Positions 4,457-15,998 of a stretch of DNA of 23,246 bases are shown here, one piece after another. How positions within the stretch are numbered: the stretch's first letter is position 1; each line of letters starts with the position of its first letter. Position numbers and translations under genes: made by a program. Where the stretch lies: IMG/VR virus record IMGVR_UViG_3300021425_003248, positions 1 to 23,246 of that record. One strand, 5' to 3'. The notes under the pieces are model-generated. The model was not told the DNA's origin and did no database searches. It saw nothing but the letters and a program-made list of their open reading frames with translations. Source of the DNA: a virus.

Positions 4457-4457
4457 A

Positions 4458-4464
4458 ATAAATA
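4458..4464 (+). promoter_or_regulatory. T4-type late promoter for the lysis unit
   Basis: ATAAATA lies 23 nt before the ATG of the peptidase gene, directly after a terminator. This matches the cyanomyovirus late promoter box read by the gp55-type sigma factor. Confidence 0.75.
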
Positions 4465-4487: not shown

Positions 4488-5186
4488 ATGCTTATAGACC
4501 TTCATAACTTCTTTAAATATTACGACGAAAAAAATCCAAAGCATGTTGCTGCGGTAGAGCAATTCGAAAAAGATTTGCTTCTTAAATCTCAAGAGTTGCT
4601 GCAAGATGATGCCAACTGGGTAAGAATTTATAGAAGTAAAGAAGACAAACCTCAAGCAACTATTTTACCTGTTCCCTTTTATCAACAAACAGATAATTAT
4701 AGAGATGCAAATAGAACTTGTAACTCTTCCGCTTGTGCTATGTGTCTTGAATATTTCAAACCTGGTACACTAAAAGGACCTAAGGGCGACGACGCCTATG
4801 TACAAAAAGTTTTCGCACTCGGTGACACAACTGATCACTTGGTTCAGACCAAGGTTCTTGCGTCATACGGCATTAAATCCAGTTTTTCCTACAGCCTTAC
4901 TTTTGCTGATCTTGATAGAGAGCTTGCCGCTGGTAGACCTGTTGTTATTGGTATTCTTCATCGCGGTCCTCTATCTAACCCCACAGGGGGGCACATGGTA
5001 GTTGTGATTGGTAAAACCCCATCAGGTGATTATGTTGTTAATGATCCTTATGGTTCACTAAATGATGGATACACTGGTTCAGTCACTAATGGTAAAAGTG
5101 CGATATACAAGCGCAGTGACCTTTCTCGTAGATGGTGTCCTGGCGGAAAGGATGGTTGGGGGAGAATCTTTGATGTAAAAAAGTAG
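4488..5186 (+). CDS. C39-like cysteine peptidase, 0-frame part of a predicted peptidase-muramidase frameshift fusion
   Basis: The 232-aa protein resembles papain-fold peptidases of the C39-like (Peptidase_C39_2) group. The likely triad is Cys78 (RTCNSSACAMC), His169 (GGHMVVVIG) and Asp186 (VNDPYG). Substrate is not known; next to a muramidase, cleavage of peptidoglycan peptides or of host proteins during lysis is the natural guess. The ATG at 4488 is chosen over an upstream TTG because it follows a late promoter at the usual distance. The last sense codons (AAA AAG) before TAG form a -1 slippery heptamer at 5177-5183 with a pseudoknot behind it. A fraction of ribosomes should therefore continue into the muramidase frame and make a product of about 393 aa. 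No signal peptide is visible. Confidence 0.85.
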   Translation: MLIDLHNFFKYYDEKNPKHVAAVEQFEKDLLLKSQELLQDDANWVRIYRSKEDKPQATILPVPFYQQTDNYRDANRTCNSSACAMCLEYFKPGTLKGPKGDDAYVQKVFALGDTTDHLVQTKVLASYGIKSSFSYSLTFADLDRELAAGRPVVIGILHRGPLSNPTGGHMVVVIGKTPSGDYVVNDPYGSLNDGYTGSVTNGKSAIYKRSDLSRRWCPGGKDGWGRIFDVKK

Positions 5187-5249
5187 AGTCAACACCACAA
5201 TCAAAAATCCCTCAGTGTGGTGTTGATTTGGTTAAAGAGTTTGAGGGAT
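5177..5249 (+). promoter_or_regulatory. Programmed -1 ribosomal frameshift signal (slippery heptamer plus H-type pseudoknot)
   Basis: A AAA AAG (5177-5183) is in the correct phase of the peptidase frame and TAG follows at once. Five nt further on, stem 1 pairs 5189-5199 with 5216-5226 (11 Watson-Crick pairs). Within its loop, 5207-5214 pairs with 5242-5249 (8 Watson-Crick pairs plus a G-U at 5215/5241), giving an H-type pseudoknot with loops of 7 and about 15 nt. The -1 frame is open from 5174 straight into the muramidase, which has no ATG, GTG or TTG start before the TTG at 5228. Slip site, spacer and pseudoknot agree with known -1 signals. Function is inferred. Confidence 0.85.
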
Positions 5250-5668
5250 GTCATTTAAATGCTTATCCCGACCCATTGACTGGTGGACTGCCAATCACAA
5301 TTGGTTGGGGTTCTACGAAAGATTTTAATGGAACTCCATTTAAACTTGGAAGAAAAATCACTCAAGAATATGCTGACAGACTATTGATGTTTGACCTTGA
5401 GCAAAGATTTCTTCCTTCACTACAGAAAATCCCACACTGGAATGAAATGACAAATGGACAAAGAGGTGCTTTGCTCAGCTTTTCTTATAATCTTGGTGCC
5501 GGTTTTTACGGTGGTTCTAACTTTAATACTATTACTAAATGCTTGAGAAATAAAGAATGGGCAAAAGTTCCTGATGCTTTATATCTTTACCGCAATCCTG
5601 GAACTAATGTAGAGAAAGGACTTGCTCGAAGAAGAGTTGCAGAAGGTAAACTTTGGAGTACTAAATGA
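5228..5668 (+). CDS. GH24 muramidase (T4-lysozyme-like endolysin), -1 frame part
   Basis: This enzyme cuts the MurNAc-GlcNAc bond of peptidoglycan at the end of infection. The conserved N-terminal active-site block is present: Glu of EFEGCHLNAYPD, Asp nine residues later, and Thr of ITIGWG, the E/D/T triad of GH24. Further family marks are QRGALLSFSYNLG in the middle and GLARRRVAEGKLW at the C-terminus. The given start is a TTG with no visible ribosome-binding site. The frame is open back to 5174, across the end of the peptidase gene. Together with the frameshift signal, this indicates that translation normally enters from the peptidase frame at 5183, adding 15 linker residues. If read alone, the domain is still essentially complete (146 aa). 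Confidence 0.92.
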   Translation: MVKEFEGCHLNAYPDPLTGGLPITIGWGSTKDFNGTPFKLGRKITQEYADRLLMFDLEQRFLPSLQKIPHWNEMTNGQRGALLSFSYNLGAGFYGGSNFNTITKCLRNKEWAKVPDALYLYRNPGTNVEKGLARRRVAEGKLWSTK

Positions 5669-5972: not shown

Positions 5973-6755
5973 ATGCCAAACTCTCACAACATGGATCGTG
6001 ACCATGTTGTTATGTTGGAGAAGTTGGATAAGATTATTCTACACGCAGAAACAGAAGAAGTTGATACTGGGTTGCGAAAGAGAATCTATGCTCTTCGCAA
6101 CCTTTTGGTCATTCATTCTGGCAAAGCTCAAGGAATGAAAGATGAGTTAAACCAACTTATTGCGAAAAATAGAAAAAGGATCCTTCTAATCGGAGCAGCA
6201 GTTGTCACTGGCATTGTTGTTCCTTATTTCGTTATAACCAGAACAACTTGGTTAATGCAAAAGCCAATTGGATGTAAAGAATTTCCAACTACAAGTCCTT
6301 TATATCCTGGTAAGATTGAAGTATGTTTGAATGGTGTTACCAGAGCATACTCATTACACAACGGTGATGTTGAATTAGACCTTACATTTATGAAATCAGA
6401 AACTGAAAGAGTACAAGCAGACATTGTATTCTGGATTGCCGATAAGATTGCTGATAAGGAAGTTGATTATGCTGGTGAGTATAATATTGACAGAGTTAGG
6501 ATATATGACAATGGGATTTTAGTTGATGACCATAGAGAAAAGATGAGTGGATGGATGCACCCACTCGTTCCTGTTGACGTTCGTATGCCTATGTGGCAAT
6601 ATGTACATGATATGAGAGGCAAATTCCATAGAGACAAACCACCATTTGAAGAAGTCCTTCATGGATTTGTAGATAATATGGGTGCGATTGTTGCTACCTT
6701 AGGGAGTATTGGTGTTACTGCTTTTAGGTTTTTTAGAGCTGGGAGAGGAATGTAA
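5973..6755 (+). CDS. Hypothetical 260-aa membrane protein
   Basis: No family is recognised. The N-terminal 65 residues are charged and helical (LEKLDKIILHAETEEVD). A first membrane helix follows a basic patch (KNRKRILLIGAAVVTGIVV, about residues 70-90). A central region of about 130 residues contains a Cys pair and IDRVRIYDNGILVDD, and a hydrophobic segment near the C-terminus (NMGAIVATLGSIGVTAF) could be a second helix. Late promoter and context suggest a lysis-time envelope protein. An alternative ATG at 5991 exists, but the first ATG fits the late promoter distance. Its last 57 nt overlap the 3' end of the minus-strand gene at 6699-6950. Confidence 0.78.
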   Translation: MPNSHNMDRDHVVMLEKLDKIILHAETEEVDTGLRKRIYALRNLLVIHSGKAQGMKDELNQLIAKNRKRILLIGAAVVTGIVVPYFVITRTTWLMQKPIGCKEFPTTSPLYPGKIEVCLNGVTRAYSLHNGDVELDLTFMKSETERVQADIVFWIADKIADKEVDYAGEYNIDRVRIYDNGILVDDHREKMSGWMHPLVPVDVRMPMWQYVHDMRGKFHRDKPPFEEVLHGFVDNMGAIVATLGSIGVTAFRFFRAGRGM

Positions 6756-6950
6756 TTCCTCTTCTCTCTTTCTTTGAGCATCAATGCCAAAGGTGGATAA
6801 GGTGGATGTGAATACTGCTGCTACAAAAGTAGGATCCATCTTATTCATCACTCCCATATAACCAAGTGTAAGCATACCAGCAGACCAAATCAGCACTGCC
6901 ATTCTAACAAAAGCAACCATACAAATATTATCCTTAATAGTTTTTCTCAT
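6699..6950 (-). CDS. Small two-helix membrane protein, holin candidate
   Basis: The 83-aa protein has two hydrophobic stretches (about residues 8-33, VAFVRMAVLIWSAGMLTLGY, and about 38-55, DPTFVAAVFTSTLSTFG) joined by a short turn. A charged tail follows (DAQRKREEE, then Ser/Pro/Lys-rich). Size, two helices and a basic/polar C-terminus are what class II holins look like, and the endolysin is nearby. There is no sequence match I recognise, so the holin role is inference. It starts within the stop of the 110-aa gene (ATGA overlap) as the last member of the minus-strand cluster, and its 3' end overlaps the opposing 260-aa gene by 57 nt. Confidence 0.72.
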   Translation of the reverse strand: MRKTIKDNICMVAFVRMAVLIWSAGMLTLGYMGVMNKMDPTFVAAVFTSTLSTFGIDAQRKREEELHSSPSSKKPKSSNTNTP

Positions 6951-9516: not shown

Positions 9517-11349
9517 ATGTCAGAACTTAAAGAATATATCGTAACTCTTCATCGCCATGAAGACCTTACCGGTTTTTATGAGGATATGGAAAGTAATGGA
9601 TATGCCTTAAAGAAAAAAAGAAACATTAGTAGAAATACTCATTATTTGTTAACCGATCAGCAAGCAGAAGATCTGAAAAATGATGAACGTGTATTGGCAG
9701 TAAATTGGGCACATCATCCTTTAAGGTTAAAATCAAGAGTTCTTGGAGGATCTTATACAATTAGTGGTACATTTTTTAAAGATGATACATCTGCTTCTGC
9801 TTGGACGGGTACCGAAACTGCTCCATTAGGCACTCCAGCAGCAACAGATAGGCAATGGGGTCAATTGCATTGTGCAGGAACAGACTCTGATAGAGGAAAA
9901 GGATCATTTGGATCAATAAATACTACTAATTTTATTTCAAGAACAACTGATATTACCGTTGGTGAGGCAGTTGGTGGAGGAACGACGGAATCTAAAAATG
10001 GGACAGTAACTGTATGGAATGATGGTAAAGATGTTGACGTTATTATTAGCGATACTCCATTGGCATATGATTGCGAAGAATGGAAAAGTCTTTCAACTGG
10101 AAATAATAGATTTGTACAATATGCTTGGAATGATTTAAATTCTATTGTTGAACTTGATGCTGGAGAATCTACGTTAAGTTCTTATTCTTATTACTCTTTA
10201 GCTGATATGGGATCAGCTACTCAAGGAACTACTCCAACAGATCATTGGCAACAATCTCATGGTATACATGTTGGGGGTACTGCCGCCGGAAAGCACTATG
10301 GGTGGGCCGTTGAATCTAATATTTATAGTATAAATTACCTTGATCCTGTTATGGTATATAGTTTATTTGATTATGTAAGAGCATTCCATCGAAAAAAATG
10401 GTCAGATGGGAACAGAACACCAACTATTATTAATAATAGTTGGTTGGCTTTAACAGTACTTTATGATGAATTGAAGGGAAATGAGTCTACTTATATTTCT
10501 TCCGTAAAATATAGAAATGTAACTTATACTCCAGGAGATACTCTTCCAAATGATGCTGGAAATACATGGGATCACACTTCACTTAAAAAAGCATTTGGTA
10601 TTGATACAAATTGGTTGGTTATTCCATATATTAATGAAGACACAATTGCCGATGTTGAAGATGCTGCTGATGAGGGTATTGTTGTAGTAACTATACCTCA
10701 CAATTTTAATAATTATTTTATTAAAGATCCTACTCATCCAGATTATAATAATCAAATTACTATATCTAATTTTGATCCTCAGGTTGATGGAACTTGGGAT
10801 ATTAATAAACCGCCCGAACCTGCTGCGGCTATTAAATCCATAGTTGTTGGGGCATTGGCTGGAACACCAGACTTTAGAAAATCATGTTTTAGTGGATATG
10901 GTCCTGCGGTAGATATTTTTGCACCGGGTTCAAATATAATTTCATGTGTCCTTGAAAATAATAAAGTTGGTCAGATTTATAGCCCTTGGCCCGGAAATGT
11001 CGATACTAAATCAGGTTATTCTGGGAATTATTATTTAAATTATAGTGGAACTAGTATGGCAGCGCCACAAGTTGCTGGTGTTTTAGCATGTGCTGCTACT
11101 AAAAAATCTAGATTTACTTATGATGATGCCCTGTATTATCTCCAGAAGACTTCAAAAAAAGATGATATGGTTTTTAATGTTAGTGGTGGTGGTTTTGATG
11201 ACCCCACACTGCAGAAAGAAAGTCCAAATGCTTATTTGTTGGCAAAAAGTCCAAGGGAAGAAACTGGATATCTTATGGATCAAAAAGGGACAAGAAAAGA
11301 ATCTGGTAATGTTTGGCCAAGACGAAATACTTTTATATACAAAGGTTAA
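9517..11349 (+). CDS. Subtilisin-like S8-family protein, copy 1
   Basis: The 610-aa protein starts with a propeptide-like domain (residues 1-75, MSELKEYIVTLHRHEDLTGF) resembling the I9 inhibitor/chaperone region of subtilases, then a catalytic domain. The triad is Asp179 (DVIISDTPLAYDCEEW), His248 (HGIHVGGTAAG) and Ser513 (SGTSMAAPQVAG). The Asp motif reads DTP instead of the usual DTG. The usual AAGN oxyanion region is replaced by IPHNFNNY, which still offers an Asn. No secretion signal is seen. It starts 3 nt after the fibre gene stop with AGAGGA as ribosome-binding site, so a virion role (processing or a fibre-attached protease) is more likely than a secreted enzyme. It is paralogous to the next S8 gene throughout. 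Confidence 0.86.
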   Translation: MSELKEYIVTLHRHEDLTGFYEDMESNGYALKKKRNISRNTHYLLTDQQAEDLKNDERVLAVNWAHHPLRLKSRVLGGSYTISGTFFKDDTSASAWTGTETAPLGTPAATDRQWGQLHCAGTDSDRGKGSFGSINTTNFISRTTDITVGEAVGGGTTESKNGTVTVWNDGKDVDVIISDTPLAYDCEEWKSLSTGNNRFVQYAWNDLNSIVELDAGESTLSSYSYYSLADMGSATQGTTPTDHWQQSHGIHVGGTAAGKHYGWAVESNIYSINYLDPVMVYSLFDYVRAFHRKKWSDGNRTPTIINNSWLALTVLYDELKGNESTYISSVKYRNVTYTPGDTLPNDAGNTWDHTSLKKAFGIDTNWLVIPYINEDTIADVEDAADEGIVVVTIPHNFNNYFIKDPTHPDYNNQITISNFDPQVDGTWDINKPPEPAAAIKSIVVGALAGTPDFRKSCFSGYGPAVDIFAPGSNIISCVLENNKVGQIYSPWPGNVDTKSGYSGNYYLNYSGTSMAAPQVAGVLACAATKKSRFTYDDALYYLQKTSKKDDMVFNVSGGGFDDPTLQKESPNAYLLAKSPREETGYLMDQKGTRKESGNVWPRRNTFIYKG

Positions 11350-11374
11350 ATAATTTTTTAGTATATTATCCTCT

Positions 11375-11471
11375 GGATTTAATAATGACGGAACTCCATC
11401 ATCCAATGTTTACGCCAGAGTTGTTAATAAGCATTCTACAACTGTTTAAGTACCTTAAGTTAGAGGACTGA
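11375..11471 (+). pseudogene. Decayed copy of the fibre gene 3' end
   Basis: Between the S8 genes, the sequence from 11375 would read GFNNDGTPSSNVYARVVNKHS in one frame. It matches GFNNDSPTTSNIYVKVVNKHS near the end of the fibre protein. After a small deletion, TACCTTAAGTTAGAGGACTGA-type sequence (YLKLED, stop) appears in another frame, again as in the fibre gene. It runs directly into the same GAGGACTGATAA ribosome-binding region and S8 start found at the fibre/S8 junction. The piece has no start and is frameshifted, so it is a relic. Confidence 0.85.
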
Positions 11472-11474
11472 TAA

Positions 11475-13289
11475 ATGTCAGAACTTAAAGAATATATCGT
11501 AACTCTTCATCGTCATGAAGACCTTGAAGGTTTTTATGAGGATATGGAGACTCCTGGTGGGGATTTGTATATTCCTGATAGAAAAGTTGATATTTCTCTC
11601 AGAAGACCAATGAGTAGAAATACTTATTATCTATTAACCGAAGAAGAAGCAGAACTTATCAAAAAAGACGAAAGAGTTTGGGATGTAGTTCTGAAAGAGG
11701 AAATTAAATTTAGACCAAGAGCTATAGTAAATAACTCTCCTTATACAGTTTCTGGTGATTTTTGGAAAGATGCAGATTCAATCAGTTTAACCGAAGAAGG
11801 AATTTTTAGACCTTCTTTTACCGCAGATGCGAATAAACATCAATGGGGATTGCTTCATTGTGCTGGAACTGCTACTCAAAGAAGAAAAAATTCTTCTTGG
11901 GGAGGTAGTGGAACCACTGAGGTAGTTAATGATTCTGTCACGGTATTTAATGGTGGTAAGCATGTTGATGTAGTTATAGTAGATGATCCAGTTTCTTATG
12001 ACTGTGAAGAGTGGTACAGTCCTTCATCAAACACTACAAGATTTGTGCAATATCAATGGTTTGATGAACTTAATTCATATGTTTTATCTATTGATGACGA
12101 TGGATTTTCCAATTTACCAACTGGAACAATAGAATATCCAACAAATGCCAGTAATTCTACTTATCATGGGACGATGGTTGCGAGTATCGCTGCCGGACAA
12201 TTTTATGGATGGGCAAAAGAATCTAACATATATTCATTAGCATTTGAATGGCCTTCTGGTCAAGGTGTATATGAAGATTTATTAATTTTTGATTATTTGA
12301 GAGCATTTCATTTATATAAACCAATAAATCCCGAAACGGGATTTAGAAATCCAACTATAACAAATCATAGTTATGGTGGGTTTAAAAATATGCCGACAAA
12401 AACTGATGAATCTGGGACATATAATAGTTTAGATTTTGAAGATTTAATATCAGTTACTTATCAAGATTCCACTTACGATGCTTCAACTCCAGGACCAGCA
12501 GGATCGTGGACTCAAGAAAATGTAGAAAATGCTTTTGGTGTTAGATTTGGTGTTGAAAATTATCCTTTATGGTCAGCGGCAACAATTGCCGATGTACAAG
12601 ATTGTATTAAAGACGGTGTTGTACTTGTAGGGGCTGCTGGAAATGATAATTTACTTCTTGCAAGACCTAATGATATTAATTGGGATAACAAATTAACAGT
12701 GTCTGGTGGAGTTGGTACTTTTTACTATAATAGAGGAGGTTCTCCAAATACTCCAGATGCTGGTATATTTCAAATTGGCAATTTATCCGATACTGCCGAT
12801 TTTCGAAGATGGAATCTTAGCGAATTTGGTCCAGGTGTCGATTATTTTGCTCCAGGAGATCAAATAGTATGTTCTTCATTTGATGCAGTCAGTTATTTTC
12901 GCAATTTAGGTGACGTTACAACTGGATTTGAATTTCTAGTAGACAGTAAGTACACGGAGGGTAGTGGGAATTGGTGGTTAGCTGCATCTGGGACTAGTTT
13001 TTCATCACCACAGGTATGTGGAATACTTGCCTGTGCTGCGACAAATAAACCAAGATTTACGCAACAAGATGCTAAAATGTATCTTGAAAAAACATGTGTA
13101 ACTGGAGATATGACTTTTGATTTAAGTGGAGGTGAATATAGCGATCCAACCTGTAGTAAAGGAAGTCCAAATAAAGTTGTGGCGTGTAAAAATCCTAGAG
13201 ATGAATCTGGATTTATTAATTCACAGAAGGGAGAAAGGAAAACTACTGGTATGGTATTTCCTCGAATAAATACATTGAATATGGTATAG
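11475..13289 (+). CDS. Subtilisin-like S8-family protein, copy 2
   Basis: This 604-aa protein is the tandem paralogue of the preceding S8 protein. The first 16 codons differ by hardly any base, then the two diverge, with a 16-residue insertion after about residue 28 here. The triad is Asp170 (DVVIVDDPVSYDCEEW), His231 (HGTMVASIAAG) and Ser508 (SGTSFSSPQVCG). It keeps the classic oxyanion segment GAAGNDN, which copy 1 lacks. The Asp motif is DDP rather than DTG. There is no signal peptide or membrane segment. The C-terminal 60 residues (DPTCSKGSPNKVVACKNPRDESGF) parallel those of copy 1 (ESPNAYLLAKSPREETGY). Divergence with triad conservation suggests two targets or a hetero-oligomer. It ends before the psbA promoter/terminator. 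Confidence 0.87.
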   Translation: MSELKEYIVTLHRHEDLEGFYEDMETPGGDLYIPDRKVDISLRRPMSRNTYYLLTEEEAELIKKDERVWDVVLKEEIKFRPRAIVNNSPYTVSGDFWKDADSISLTEEGIFRPSFTADANKHQWGLLHCAGTATQRRKNSSWGGSGTTEVVNDSVTVFNGGKHVDVVIVDDPVSYDCEEWYSPSSNTTRFVQYQWFDELNSYVLSIDDDGFSNLPTGTIEYPTNASNSTYHGTMVASIAAGQFYGWAKESNIYSLAFEWPSGQGVYEDLLIFDYLRAFHLYKPINPETGFRNPTITNHSYGGFKNMPTKTDESGTYNSLDFEDLISVTYQDSTYDASTPGPAGSWTQENVENAFGVRFGVENYPLWSAATIADVQDCIKDGVVLVGAAGNDNLLLARPNDINWDNKLTVSGGVGTFYYNRGGSPNTPDAGIFQIGNLSDTADFRRWNLSEFGPGVDYFAPGDQIVCSSFDAVSYFRNLGDVTTGFEFLVDSKYTEGSGNWWLAASGTSFSSPQVCGILACAATNKPRFTQQDAKMYLEKTCVTGDMTFDLSGGEYSDPTCSKGSPNKVVACKNPRDESGFINSQKGERKTTGMVFPRINTLNMV

Positions 13290-13347: not shown

Positions 13348-13403
13348 GGTAAACAAATGTTACGAAATCAACATATTTCTTAATATTTGTCCTCTTCCTA
13401 ACC

Positions 13404-13461
13404 GAGACCTATGGGGAGGTAAAACACAGTCTCTCATACCCACACTGGAGGGTGGTGTGGG
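13404..13461 (+). ncRNA. Structured psbA leader RNA (PhotoRC-like candidate)
   Basis: The leader of about 160 nt before psbA contains GAGAC (13404-13408) able to pair with GTCTC (13429-13433). It also has a 7-bp hairpin CCCACAC/GTGTGGG (13439-13445 with 13455-13461) with a 9-nt purine-rich loop, and the G-rich block ATGGGGAGG. Conserved PhotoRC RNA motifs are known before psbA in marine cyanobacteria and phages. Membership here is a guess from position and folding. Confidence 0.45.
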
Positions 13462-13513
13462 ATATAATGTACTCGTTCAGTTCCCCCTGAGCATTACTTA
13501 CCCTTTAACGAAA

Positions 13514-14061
13514 ATGACTGCTTCTATTGCACAACGCAATTCTACTAACCCCTGGGAATCTTTTTGCCAGTGGGTTACTTCAACCGATAATCGTCTTTAT
13601 GTCGGTTGGTTTGGAGTCCTTATGATTCCTTGCCTACTTGCTGCTACAACTTGTTTCATCATTGCATTCATCGGTGCTCCCCCTGTGGACATTGATGGTA
13701 TTCGTGAACCAGTTGCTGGCTCTCTAATGTATGGAAATAACATCATCTCTGGTGCTGTTGTTCCTTCGTCCAACGCAATTGGACTGCACTTCTACCCCAT
13801 CTGGGAAGCCGCCTCTCTGGATGAGTGGCTTTACAACGGCGGACCTTTCCAACTCGTTGTCTTCCACTTCCTCATTGGTATCTATGCTTATATGGGTCGT
13901 GAGTGGGAACTCTCTTACCGTCTAGGTATGCGCCCTTGGATCTGTGTTGCTTACAGCGCACCTGTTGCTGCTGCTTCTGCCGTATTCCTGGTCTATCCTT
14001 TCGGTCAAGGTTCTTTCTCTGATGCGATGCCTCTGGGTATCTCTGGTACTTTTAACTACAT
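13514..14061 (+). CDS. psbA: Photosystem II D1 protein, exon 1
   Basis: D1 is the reaction-centre subunit of photosystem II and the subunit most rapidly lost to light damage; phage copies keep photosynthesis running in infected cells. Exon 1 encodes residues 1-182 plus two bases of codon 183, from [17 protein letters not shown] through [17 protein letters not shown] to SGTFNY. Residue 130 is Glu, the form of high-light D1 isoforms. An in-frame GTG at 13457 would add 19 residues but lies in the structured leader; the ATG at 13514 gives the normal D1 start. Exon 1 ends in ACTACAT at 14061 and joins 14941. Exons total 1080 nt, exactly 359 codons plus stop, the normal D1 length. Unspliced RNA would stop three codons after the junction. 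Confidence 0.96.
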
Positions 14062-14126
14062 AAACTAAACCAATGTGTAGTATAAATCGGGTGAACTGCT
14101 GGAAACCTAAATCGTATTGACTAACC

Positions 14127-14172
14127 TTTAACTTTATGTTATTATAAATAATAATAGATACATAAAGTTAAA
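14127..14172 (+). promoter_or_regulatory. Late promoter inside a 12-bp hairpin at the endonuclease start
   Basis: TTTAACTTTATG (14127-14138) and CATAAAGTTAAA (14161-14172) are perfect inverse copies; the second ends on the A of the start codon. The 22-nt loop contains TATAAATA (14143-14150), the late box, 21 nt before the ATG. psbA read-through RNA would bury the start, while RNA begun at the late box lacks the first arm. The same logic is known for T4 I-TevI, e and soc. Confidence 0.82.
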
Positions 14173-14831
14173 TGTCTAAGAAACTTACTATTGATGATAT
14201 AAAAAGTATTGCTGAAAATAGAAACCACACAATAGTTTCTATGGAAGGTTATGCAGACATCAAAAGTAAAGTCCAGTTCTTCTGTAATACTTGTAATAAT
14301 CATTTTGATACAAGTGTTGCTTCTTATAAAAATGCAAAGAAAACTGGGTGTCCTCATTGTAGGAAAATCATTATCTCCAAAACTCAAAAAGGAAAGGATG
14401 TTAGTGATGAAACCAGAAAACTTCTATCTCTAAAAGCACAAGGTCGCAAAGGTTCTCTCAAAGGTAGGTTTGGTAAAAACCATCCTGCATATAAAGGAAC
14501 TCCAAATAGAGATTTTAATAACCCCTCAACAGATTATTATATTTGGAGAGAGGCAGTAAAAACTAGGTTCAATAGAACCTGTGTTGTTACTGGTAAAAAA
14601 TCTAACCTTGTTACTCATCATTTAGATGGTTGGAATGCATATCCTCAAAGAAGATATGATATTACAAACGGCGTTCTTATTCACAAAGAAGTTCATAAAC
14701 TATTCCACGACCTTTATGGTTATGGTAATAATACAGAAGAACAGTTTAATCTCTTTCTCAAAGAGCAATACGACACGGCAATCAGCATCCAAGTCTCAGA
14801 TACATCTGAGAAAGGTTCAGAGACTACCTGA
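14172..14831 (+). CDS. Intron-encoded HNH homing endonuclease
   Basis: The 219-aa enzyme should cut intronless psbA near the insertion site and so spread the intron. The N-terminal part (about residues 1-65) contains a zinc-ribbon-like pair of CxxC motifs (CNTCNNHF and CPHCRK). A basic linker follows (KKGKDVSDETRKLL, RKGSLKGRFGKNHPAYKGT), resembling DNA-binding NUMOD segments. The HNH core lies near residues 124-178: YYIWREAVKTRFNRTCVVTG, then THHLDGWNAYP and ITNGVLIHKEVHKLFHDLYG. The gene lies wholly inside the psbA intron, ends beside its P7 element, and has its own late promoter within a hairpin. It is AT-richer than the surrounding psbA exons, as expected for a mobile gene. Confidence 0.9.
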   Translation: MSKKLTIDDIKSIAENRNHTIVSMEGYADIKSKVQFFCNTCNNHFDTSVASYKNAKKTGCPHCRKIIISKTQKGKDVSDETRKLLSLKAQGRKGSLKGRFGKNHPAYKGTPNRDFNNPSTDYYIWREAVKTRFNRTCVVTGKKSNLVTHHLDGWNAYPQRRYDITNGVLIHKEVHKLFHDLYGYGNNTEEQFNLFLKEQYDTAISIQVSDTSEKGSETT

Positions 14832-14920
14832 GGAGTTCAGTCTCCTTAATAACAGGTTTAAGCGCCCGACAATCTAATAAAATAGATTGATGATATAGTC
14901 CAATCCCTATGGAAACATAG

Positions 14921-15472
<552 letters not shown>

Positions 15473-15493
15473 GGTAATCTAATTCATTAAGTT

Positions 15494-15517
15494 AAGGAAC
15501 CTTCGGGTTCCTTTTTT
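15494..15517 (+). terminator. psbA terminator with a TTCG tetraloop
   Basis: AAGGAACC and GGTTCCTT form an 8-bp stem closed by the very stable C(TTCG)G tetraloop, and T follows. It ends psbA transcription. Confidence 0.93.
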
Positions 15518-15519
15518 AT

Positions 15520-15548
15520 TTGCTAAATAGTTGAAGTTATGATATAAT
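15520..15548 (+). promoter_or_regulatory. Promoter for the endonuclease VII-like gene
   Basis: TTGCTA (15520-15525), 17 nt, TATAAT (15543-15548) lie 21 nt before the gene at 15570. A late-like CTAAATA (15523-15529) overlaps the -35 region. Confidence 0.55.
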
Positions 15549-15569
15549 AACTTCAACTAACTAAAAACT

Positions 15570-15998
15570 ATGAGAACCTGTAAAATCTGCAACCAAACAA
15601 AACCACTTACAGATTTTTACCAAACTGTAAGGAATGGAAAACCATACGGACATCATGGAAAATGTAAATCTTGTTATGTAAAAAAACAACAAGAAACATA
15701 TGACCCCATAAAAAAGAGGGATGAAAATTTGCGAAGAGTTTATGGTATTGGTATTGAAGAATATAATACTCTATTAGAACAACAAAATCATCGTTGTGCA
15801 ATTTGTGAAAGTACTGACCCAAAAGGTAGGAAATCTGGTAGAGGTGGTGGTGTTGATGTTTTTTATGTAGACCACGACCATAATACAGGAAAGGTTCGTG
15901 GTCTACTTTGTAATATATGTAATAGAACGATGGGATATGTTGGTGAAAATTCTGGTATACTAGAAGAAATGATTAAATACCTACAAAAGCACCAATAA
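15570..15998 (+). CDS. Endonuclease VII-like (HNH-superfamily) free-standing nuclease
   Basis: The 142-aa protein has an N-terminal zinc-binding pair (MRTCKICNQTKP and GKCKSCYVKK). A linker follows, ending in YNTLLEQQNHRCAIC, and then the catalytic block YVDHDHNTGKVRGLLCNICN, the signature of the T4 endonuclease VII fold used by many free-standing homing nucleases. Cys residues of CAIC and CNIC complete the second zinc site. It stands directly after psbA exon 2, the position held in phage S-PM2 by F-CphI, which promotes homing of the psbA intron in trans. A general recombination nuclease is the alternative, but small size and position favour a homing role. Confidence 0.85.
   Translation: MRTCKICNQTKPLTDFYQTVRNGKPYGHHGKCKSCYVKKQQETYDPIKKRDENLRRVYGIGIEEYNTLLEQQNHRCAICESTDPKGRKSGRGGGVDVFYVDHDHNTGKVRGLLCNICNRTMGYVGENSGILEEMIKYLQKHQ

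Follow-up and report, generated by a model that had tools for sequence, protein, structure and literature searches.

How a phage lysis enzyme with no convincing start codon of its own comes to be made is the question raised by a locus in a 23-kb virus contig (hereafter the window, 23,246 nucleotides) whose relatives are Kyanoviridae cyanophages. A peptidase gene here runs into a stop codon, and a muramidase coding region carries on from the same point in the -1 frame. As originally predicted, this lysis gene pair is very probably expressed via programmed -1 ribosomal frameshifting, judging from comparison of homologous junctions. In S-PM2-type cyanophages, the conserved signal should shift some ribosomes by -1 and thereby extend the peptidase with a lysozyme into a two-enzyme lysis protein. 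The two coding regions of the window are as follows.

4488 to 5186, + strand: C39-like cysteine peptidase, 0-frame gene; ATG open reading frame of 232 aa, of which about the first 50 form an N-terminal module.
5183 to 5668, + strand: linker plus GH24 muramidase in the -1 frame; 161 aa, the C-terminal half of a predicted 393-aa fusion.

The product of 4488-5186 is predicted to be a C39-like peptidase by profile (Pfam PF13529, E 2.4e-13; PHROG 3617), by the conserved positions C78, H169, and D186, and by fold, the peptidase part of a modeled related fusion (L035) displaying a C39/papain-like fold with 3erv among its fold matches. Profile and fold likewise identify the predicted -1 frame product as a GH24 muramidase (Phage_lysozyme), which matches Pfam PF00959 (E 3.5e-21) and solved GH24 lysozymes (best 9kbq, E 6.6e-16), with a target TM-score of 0.88 for the related-fusion model against 9kbq_A. 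The match to solved lysozymes starts at residue 11 of the -1 frame. The sole start-like codon 5' of the catalytic motif in the window is a TTG at 5228, which has no evident Shine-Dalgarno sequence before it, and a start there would remove the first residues of the muramidase domain; the earlier view that the muramidase has no convincing start thus stands. No in-frame internal start giving a C-terminal isoform is found either, the muramidase sitting in another frame. Two further expectations were borne out by the letters themselves, as the -1 frame has no stop from the slip site to 5668, and 232 plus 161 residues give the anticipated fusion of about 393 aa.

The N-terminal module (IDLHNFFKYYDE...W..IYR, window 4488-4640; elsewhere L004 3767-4435 and L243 2456-3226) recurs outside the C39 peptidase, in a separate GH24 muramidase gene and in a third protein, by eye a GH19-type hydrolase without a Pfam match. 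Its role is probably one of targeting, common to cyanophage lysis enzymes. Ferredoxin- and peroxiredoxin-like genes precede the pair, and small unknown genes follow it. No tape measure gene was seen among these neighbors, and the pair does not occupy the position of the tail assembly chaperone, between the major tail and tape measure genes. Upstream, AATAAATA (4457-4464, + strand) is a putative late promoter, resembling the T4 type. Near the lysis genes, the minus strand encodes an 83-aa DUF6450 protein with hydrophobic stretches (window 6699-6950).

The recoding site proper consists of two short elements.

5177 to 5183, + strand: slippery heptamer A AAA AAG, in phase; the same in 95 of 102 distinct homologous junctions.
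5184 to 5186, + strand: 0-frame stop TAG directly 3' of the slip site; such placement in 76 of 102 junctions.

The heptamer is phased as X XXY YYZ and abuts the stop, just as had been claimed, because the open reading frame 4488-5186 ends GAT GTA AAA AAG TAG. In Escherichia coli, few heptamers are as shift-prone as A AAA AAG, which constitutes the dnaX site (PMC5009743). After slippage, the joint in the product would read ...DVKK-VESTPQ....

Homologous junctions were gathered through protein-guided scans of IMG/VR, with no selection on the junction itself, and from phage records, yielding 159 distinct junctions. Those in which the muramidase lies within 150 nt of the peptidase were designated close (n = 102, plus 10 single in-frame open reading frames). 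The muramidase occupies the -1 frame in all 102 close junctions and the +1 frame in none; pairs at least 150 nt apart, which are separate genes, display mixed frames (34/11/2). An in-phase slippery heptamer is present in 98 of the 102, comprising 95 A AAA AAG, 1 A AAA AAA, and 2 T TTT TTT, and the remaining four all possess an ATGA or GTGA start-stop overlap (L028, L078, L085, and L130). An in-phase A AAA AAG was encountered neither in the bodies of C39 peptidase genes (0 in 34,448 codons) nor in the tails of C39 genes that are followed by a separate gene (0/47). The -1 linker, 11-27 codons in length, is open in 98/98 slip-bearing junctions and lacks any ATG or GTG in 57 of the 76 whose stop abuts the slip site (the window and 56 others); linkers that are always open and mostly devoid of ATG/GTG are what translation through the linker predicts. 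A collection-wide pattern search for A6 plus stop retrieved at least 119 stretches, and the -1 open reading frame was open in 95/95 of this larger set. An upstream Shine-Dalgarno-like stimulator is not enriched, occurring in 19/95 slip junctions versus 13/47 of the separate-gene type.

Downstream of the stop, the window contains a stem and, overlapping its loop, a possible second helix.

5189 to 5199, + strand: stem 1, 5' arm TCAACACCACA; perfect 11-bp complement of 5216-5226, with compensatory changes in relatives.
5216 to 5226, + strand: stem 1, 3' arm TGTGGTGTTGA; perfect 11-bp complement of 5189-5199, with compensatory changes in relatives.
5207 to 5214, + strand: possible pseudoknot stem 2, loop strand ATCCCTCA; 8-bp complement of 5242-5249.
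5242 to 5249, + strand: possible pseudoknot stem 2, downstream strand TGAGGGAT, over Phe-Glu-Gly-Cys codons.

The described 11-bp stem after 5 nt is correct to the base, with perfectly complementary arms and a 5-nt spacer, and the region folds at z = -2.35 in the window. Across the 76 junctions whose stop adjoins the slip site, comparison with dinucleotide shuffles gives a median fold z of -3.1 and comparison with synonymous-codon shuffles one of -1.9, the latter being moderate per sequence; in the controls, namely members without a slip site and ACG-type in-frame fusions, z is near zero. Strong stems recur at a similar spacing (mostly 2-8 nt) with unrelated sequences, the groups being CAACACCAC/GTGGTGTTG, CGCCAACTAA/TTAGTTGGC, GTTCTACTCC/GGAGTAGAAC, CCCCAC/GTGGGG, and GTAGAACC/GGTTCTAC. 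Covariation in stem 1, which the original prediction proposed to look for in related phages, is found both in the window's group, with double compensatory changes at 3 stem pairs (0/500 shuffles), and in the GGAGTAGA group, with compensatory changes in 11 cells (0/500 shuffles), and it lies weakly above shuffles in the CCAAC stem group (score reached by 24/500); such counts are not probabilities because the members are related. The stem was not called in a terminator scan, and an Rfam scan of the window returned nothing at the peptidase-muramidase junction, its sole match being PhotoRC-II.

The H-type pseudoknot proposed for this junction fared less uniformly. Its 8-bp loop complement exists, and the Phe-Glu-Gly-Cys codons at 5242-5249, which include the likely catalytic Glu, appear to be under synonymous constraint: the Glu codon is GAG in 23/23 members of the TCCCTC-loop group versus 23/75 others (Fisher 6e-10, with kinship ignored). 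Helix 2 is paired in 98.3% of cells among 22 relatives, but these include no compensatory double changes, and the pseudoknot was not seen in stem groups other than the window's TCCCTC-loop group. From these alignments, a pseudoknot is plausible, and in our view likely, in the TCCCTC-loop group, including the window, and the predicted constant stimulator is the stem, with the possible pseudoknot limited to that one group.

Nature has also produced the predicted fusion without a shift. The 10 single-frame relatives carry the same domain order and linker as the predicted frameshift product; among the in-frame forms, a single frame codes for the fusion in ACG-2014f and seven related contigs, and L035 and L304 contain one extra A (A7), which puts precisely the shifted product into one frame, and retain the stem. 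In an AlphaFold model, the L035 fusion folds into two confidently predicted domains joined by a loose linker (234-240). A collection-wide pattern search located the A7 form in 5 contigs (L035, L304, and three further), and in the peptidase tree L035 and L304 adjoin or sit among slip-bearing members. Relatives whose A-run differs by one base, which the original prediction regarded as speaking against it, therefore do occur, but as a rare, stem-keeping variant; being rare and retaining the stem, A7 looks like a frozen fusion.

These observations can be assembled into a mechanism. The majority of ribosomes would read the peptidase to the TAG and release the 232-aa enzyme, and a fraction would be held up by the stem, in the window's group perhaps by the pseudoknot, just past A AAA AAG. 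Both lysyl-tRNAs would then re-pair one base back (AAA AAA), bypassing the stop, and the shifted ribosomes would proceed through the short linker into the GH24 muramidase, giving a 393-aa enzyme with two catalytic domains that, at lysis, likely cleaves the host wall at its peptide as well as its glycan bonds. The locus has the in-phase heptamer, the conserved downstream structure, and the -1 open reading frame, open and coding in homologues, by which a -1 signal is recognized. We infer frameshifting in infected cyanobacteria, its ratio, and its role in lysis from this evidence.

Other routes to a muramidase have to be set against these features. Termination at the peptidase stop with a nearby restart, giving a separate muramidase, probably operates in some of the overlap types: the four close relatives without a slip site have ATGA or GTGA overlaps, and 13 slip-bearing junctions, including that of S-SRM01, place the stop one codon later with an overlapping ATG or GTG. 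As the way in which the pair is expressed, reinitiation is nevertheless improbable, since the linkers of the window and 56 other junctions offer no ATG or GTG, the TTG at 5228 would truncate the domain and has no evident Shine-Dalgarno sequence, and a near-invariant slip site followed by a covarying stem is left unexplained. Insertion of an A by RNA polymerase on the A6 run, so that some mRNAs encode the fusion in frame, would yield precisely what the A7 DNA of L035 and L304 encodes. Six A residues followed by G are, however, short for transcriptional slippage, and the conserved phase of the heptamer relative to the codons, together with a covarying stem at similar spacing, are ribosomal features, making this route very improbable.

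Least credible of all is that the muramidase is decaying or mis-sequenced, through a plain frameshift mutation or a misassembly. Errors that change a homopolymer by one base are frequent, and the annotators of S-PM2 and S-CAM7 called only fragments, but 102 distinct junctions, drawn from many metagenomes and isolates, all display this -1 offset, a second S-PM2 record agrees, and the muramidase coding is intact; decay or error as the cause of the offset is refuted by this conservation. A different kind of doubt accepts the same -1 frameshifting and concerns the role only: the fusion might have another task than lysing the host when infection ends, such as that of a virion-associated wall hydrolase. 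This is unlikely, as both enzymes match endolysin families (PHROG 10051, 7, and 28234) and the N-terminal module is common to other likely wall hydrolases. Programmed -1 frameshifting is supported as the only tested reading that covers all junction features together, because the frame is fixed at -1 (102/102), the slip site is near-invariant (98/102), unrelated stems recur and covary, the linker is open and startless, and in-frame fusions exist naturally; the claim that a frameshift joins the peptidase to the muramidase is thus upheld.

The architecture of the pair varies among close relatives. Junctions of the S-SRM01 type keep the slip site and have mostly a short, weak stem of 5-6 bp (AATTCC/GGAATT), and may use reinitiation, frameshifting, or both; in S-SRM01 itself (L001 3690-3705), the start-stop overlap reads ATGA. 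The slip site of S-CAM7 is T TTT TTT, followed by a stem of its own; two isolates agree in this, and S-CAM7 falls inside the ACG-2014f in-frame fusion clade of the tree. The second gene of DSL-LC02/LC03 possesses a separate start and carries the N-terminal module again. In S-CREM1 (L003 2997-4178), the domain order of the fusion is reversed: the muramidase precedes the peptidase, and the joint MAMIDLHNFF offers a possible internal start. The peptidase tree requires about 20 changes between architectures, a count slightly inflated by L127 and L168, which were coded 'slip_ATGA' (AAG TGA reads GTGA) despite real stems; the locus therefore switches often. Stem type is at odds with the peptidase tree, which suggests that recombination near the slip site swaps the stem together with the muramidase as one unit. 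A broader proposal, for and against which we see the chances as evenly balanced, is that recoding controls the whole cyanophage endolysin family. Shift efficiency would set the proportion of peptidase-only to bifunctional enzyme and so tune lysis, with repeated switching among start-stop overlap, frameshift fusion, permanent fusion, and separate genes, so that the locus would record fusions arising and dissolving via a recoding intermediate.

For well-studied isolates, the predicted signal bears directly on annotation. S-PM2 carries it, and its reference and deletion-mutant records are identical at the junction. The annotated 'putative lysin' of S-PM2 is a 72-aa fragment (L002 3957-4175) and the 'lysin' of S-CAM7 is 90 or 72 aa (L008 3759-4031), both models being without the part of the muramidase that holds the first catalytic residue; there is no usable start upstream of the called lysins for the annotators of either phage. 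Frameshifting would provide S-PM2 and other widely used cyanophages with the expression route that has so far been missing for their lysin, and it serves as a warning that such enzymes are missed by automated annotation in abundant aquatic viruses.

Other genes of the window were noted in passing. An OprB/SLH porin, normally a cyanobacterial outer-membrane protein, is encoded on this phage contig (window 53-1522; PF04966 and PF00395). Two tandem paralogues with a common N terminus (MSELKEYIVTLHRHEDL) occupy 9517-13289, the first matching S8 subtilases. Within 13381-15998, psbA has the PhotoRC-II RNA 5' of it and is apparently interrupted by an insert carrying an open reading frame (14172-14831), likely an intron, after which comes an endonuclease VII-like gene.

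In phages, -1 frameshifting is known chiefly from tail genes, and the present case would add lysis enzymes to the short list of phage genes with conserved -1 frameshifting. No description of a conserved frameshift joining two wall hydrolases was found in the literature searched, which covered few subscription papers or preprints. The closest mechanistic parallels are E. coli dnaX and the IS3 family, which likewise combine A AAA AAG with a downstream stem or pseudoknot and make two products sharing an N terminus (PMC5009743 and PMC4066793). The genes are different, however, the upstream Shine-Dalgarno-like stimulator described there is not enriched in the cyanophage junctions, and the longer cyanophage product gains a second catalytic domain. 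The tail assembly chaperone genes of dsDNA phages also form a pair whose short product is accompanied by a longer, frameshifted one (Xu et al. 2004, via PMC10885494), and some T4-like phages are said to swap chaperone frameshifting for a fused gene copy; the cyanophage pair, by contrast, consists of lysis enzymes rather than tail assembly proteins, and no homology was seen.

Among lysis genes, two-polypeptide endolysins (PMC9430671; Ms6 LysA, PMC3111421; CTP1L, PMC4777826) similarly derive two isoforms from one locus. They do so by an in-frame internal start, with the short form being the C-terminal part, whereas in the cyanophages it is the long form that recoding would make, the N-terminal enzyme being the short one. 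The lysozyme-like lysin of lactococcal phage phi-vML3, from overlapping genes (Shearman et al. 1994, via PMC10885494 and PMC3111421), is counted as a frameshift case by PRFect's authors (PMC10885494) and is described elsewhere as a lysin and a holin-like protein (PMC3111421), not a fusion of two hydrolases. The in-frame fusions of the phrog_3617 / ACG-2014f type are homologous, with the same domains, order, and linker position, but have a single frame with no stop at the joint and no stem, so that the fusion is their sole product. That close relatives express one protein pair through several architectures affords a rare direct view of how a frameshift site and a gene fusion interconvert.
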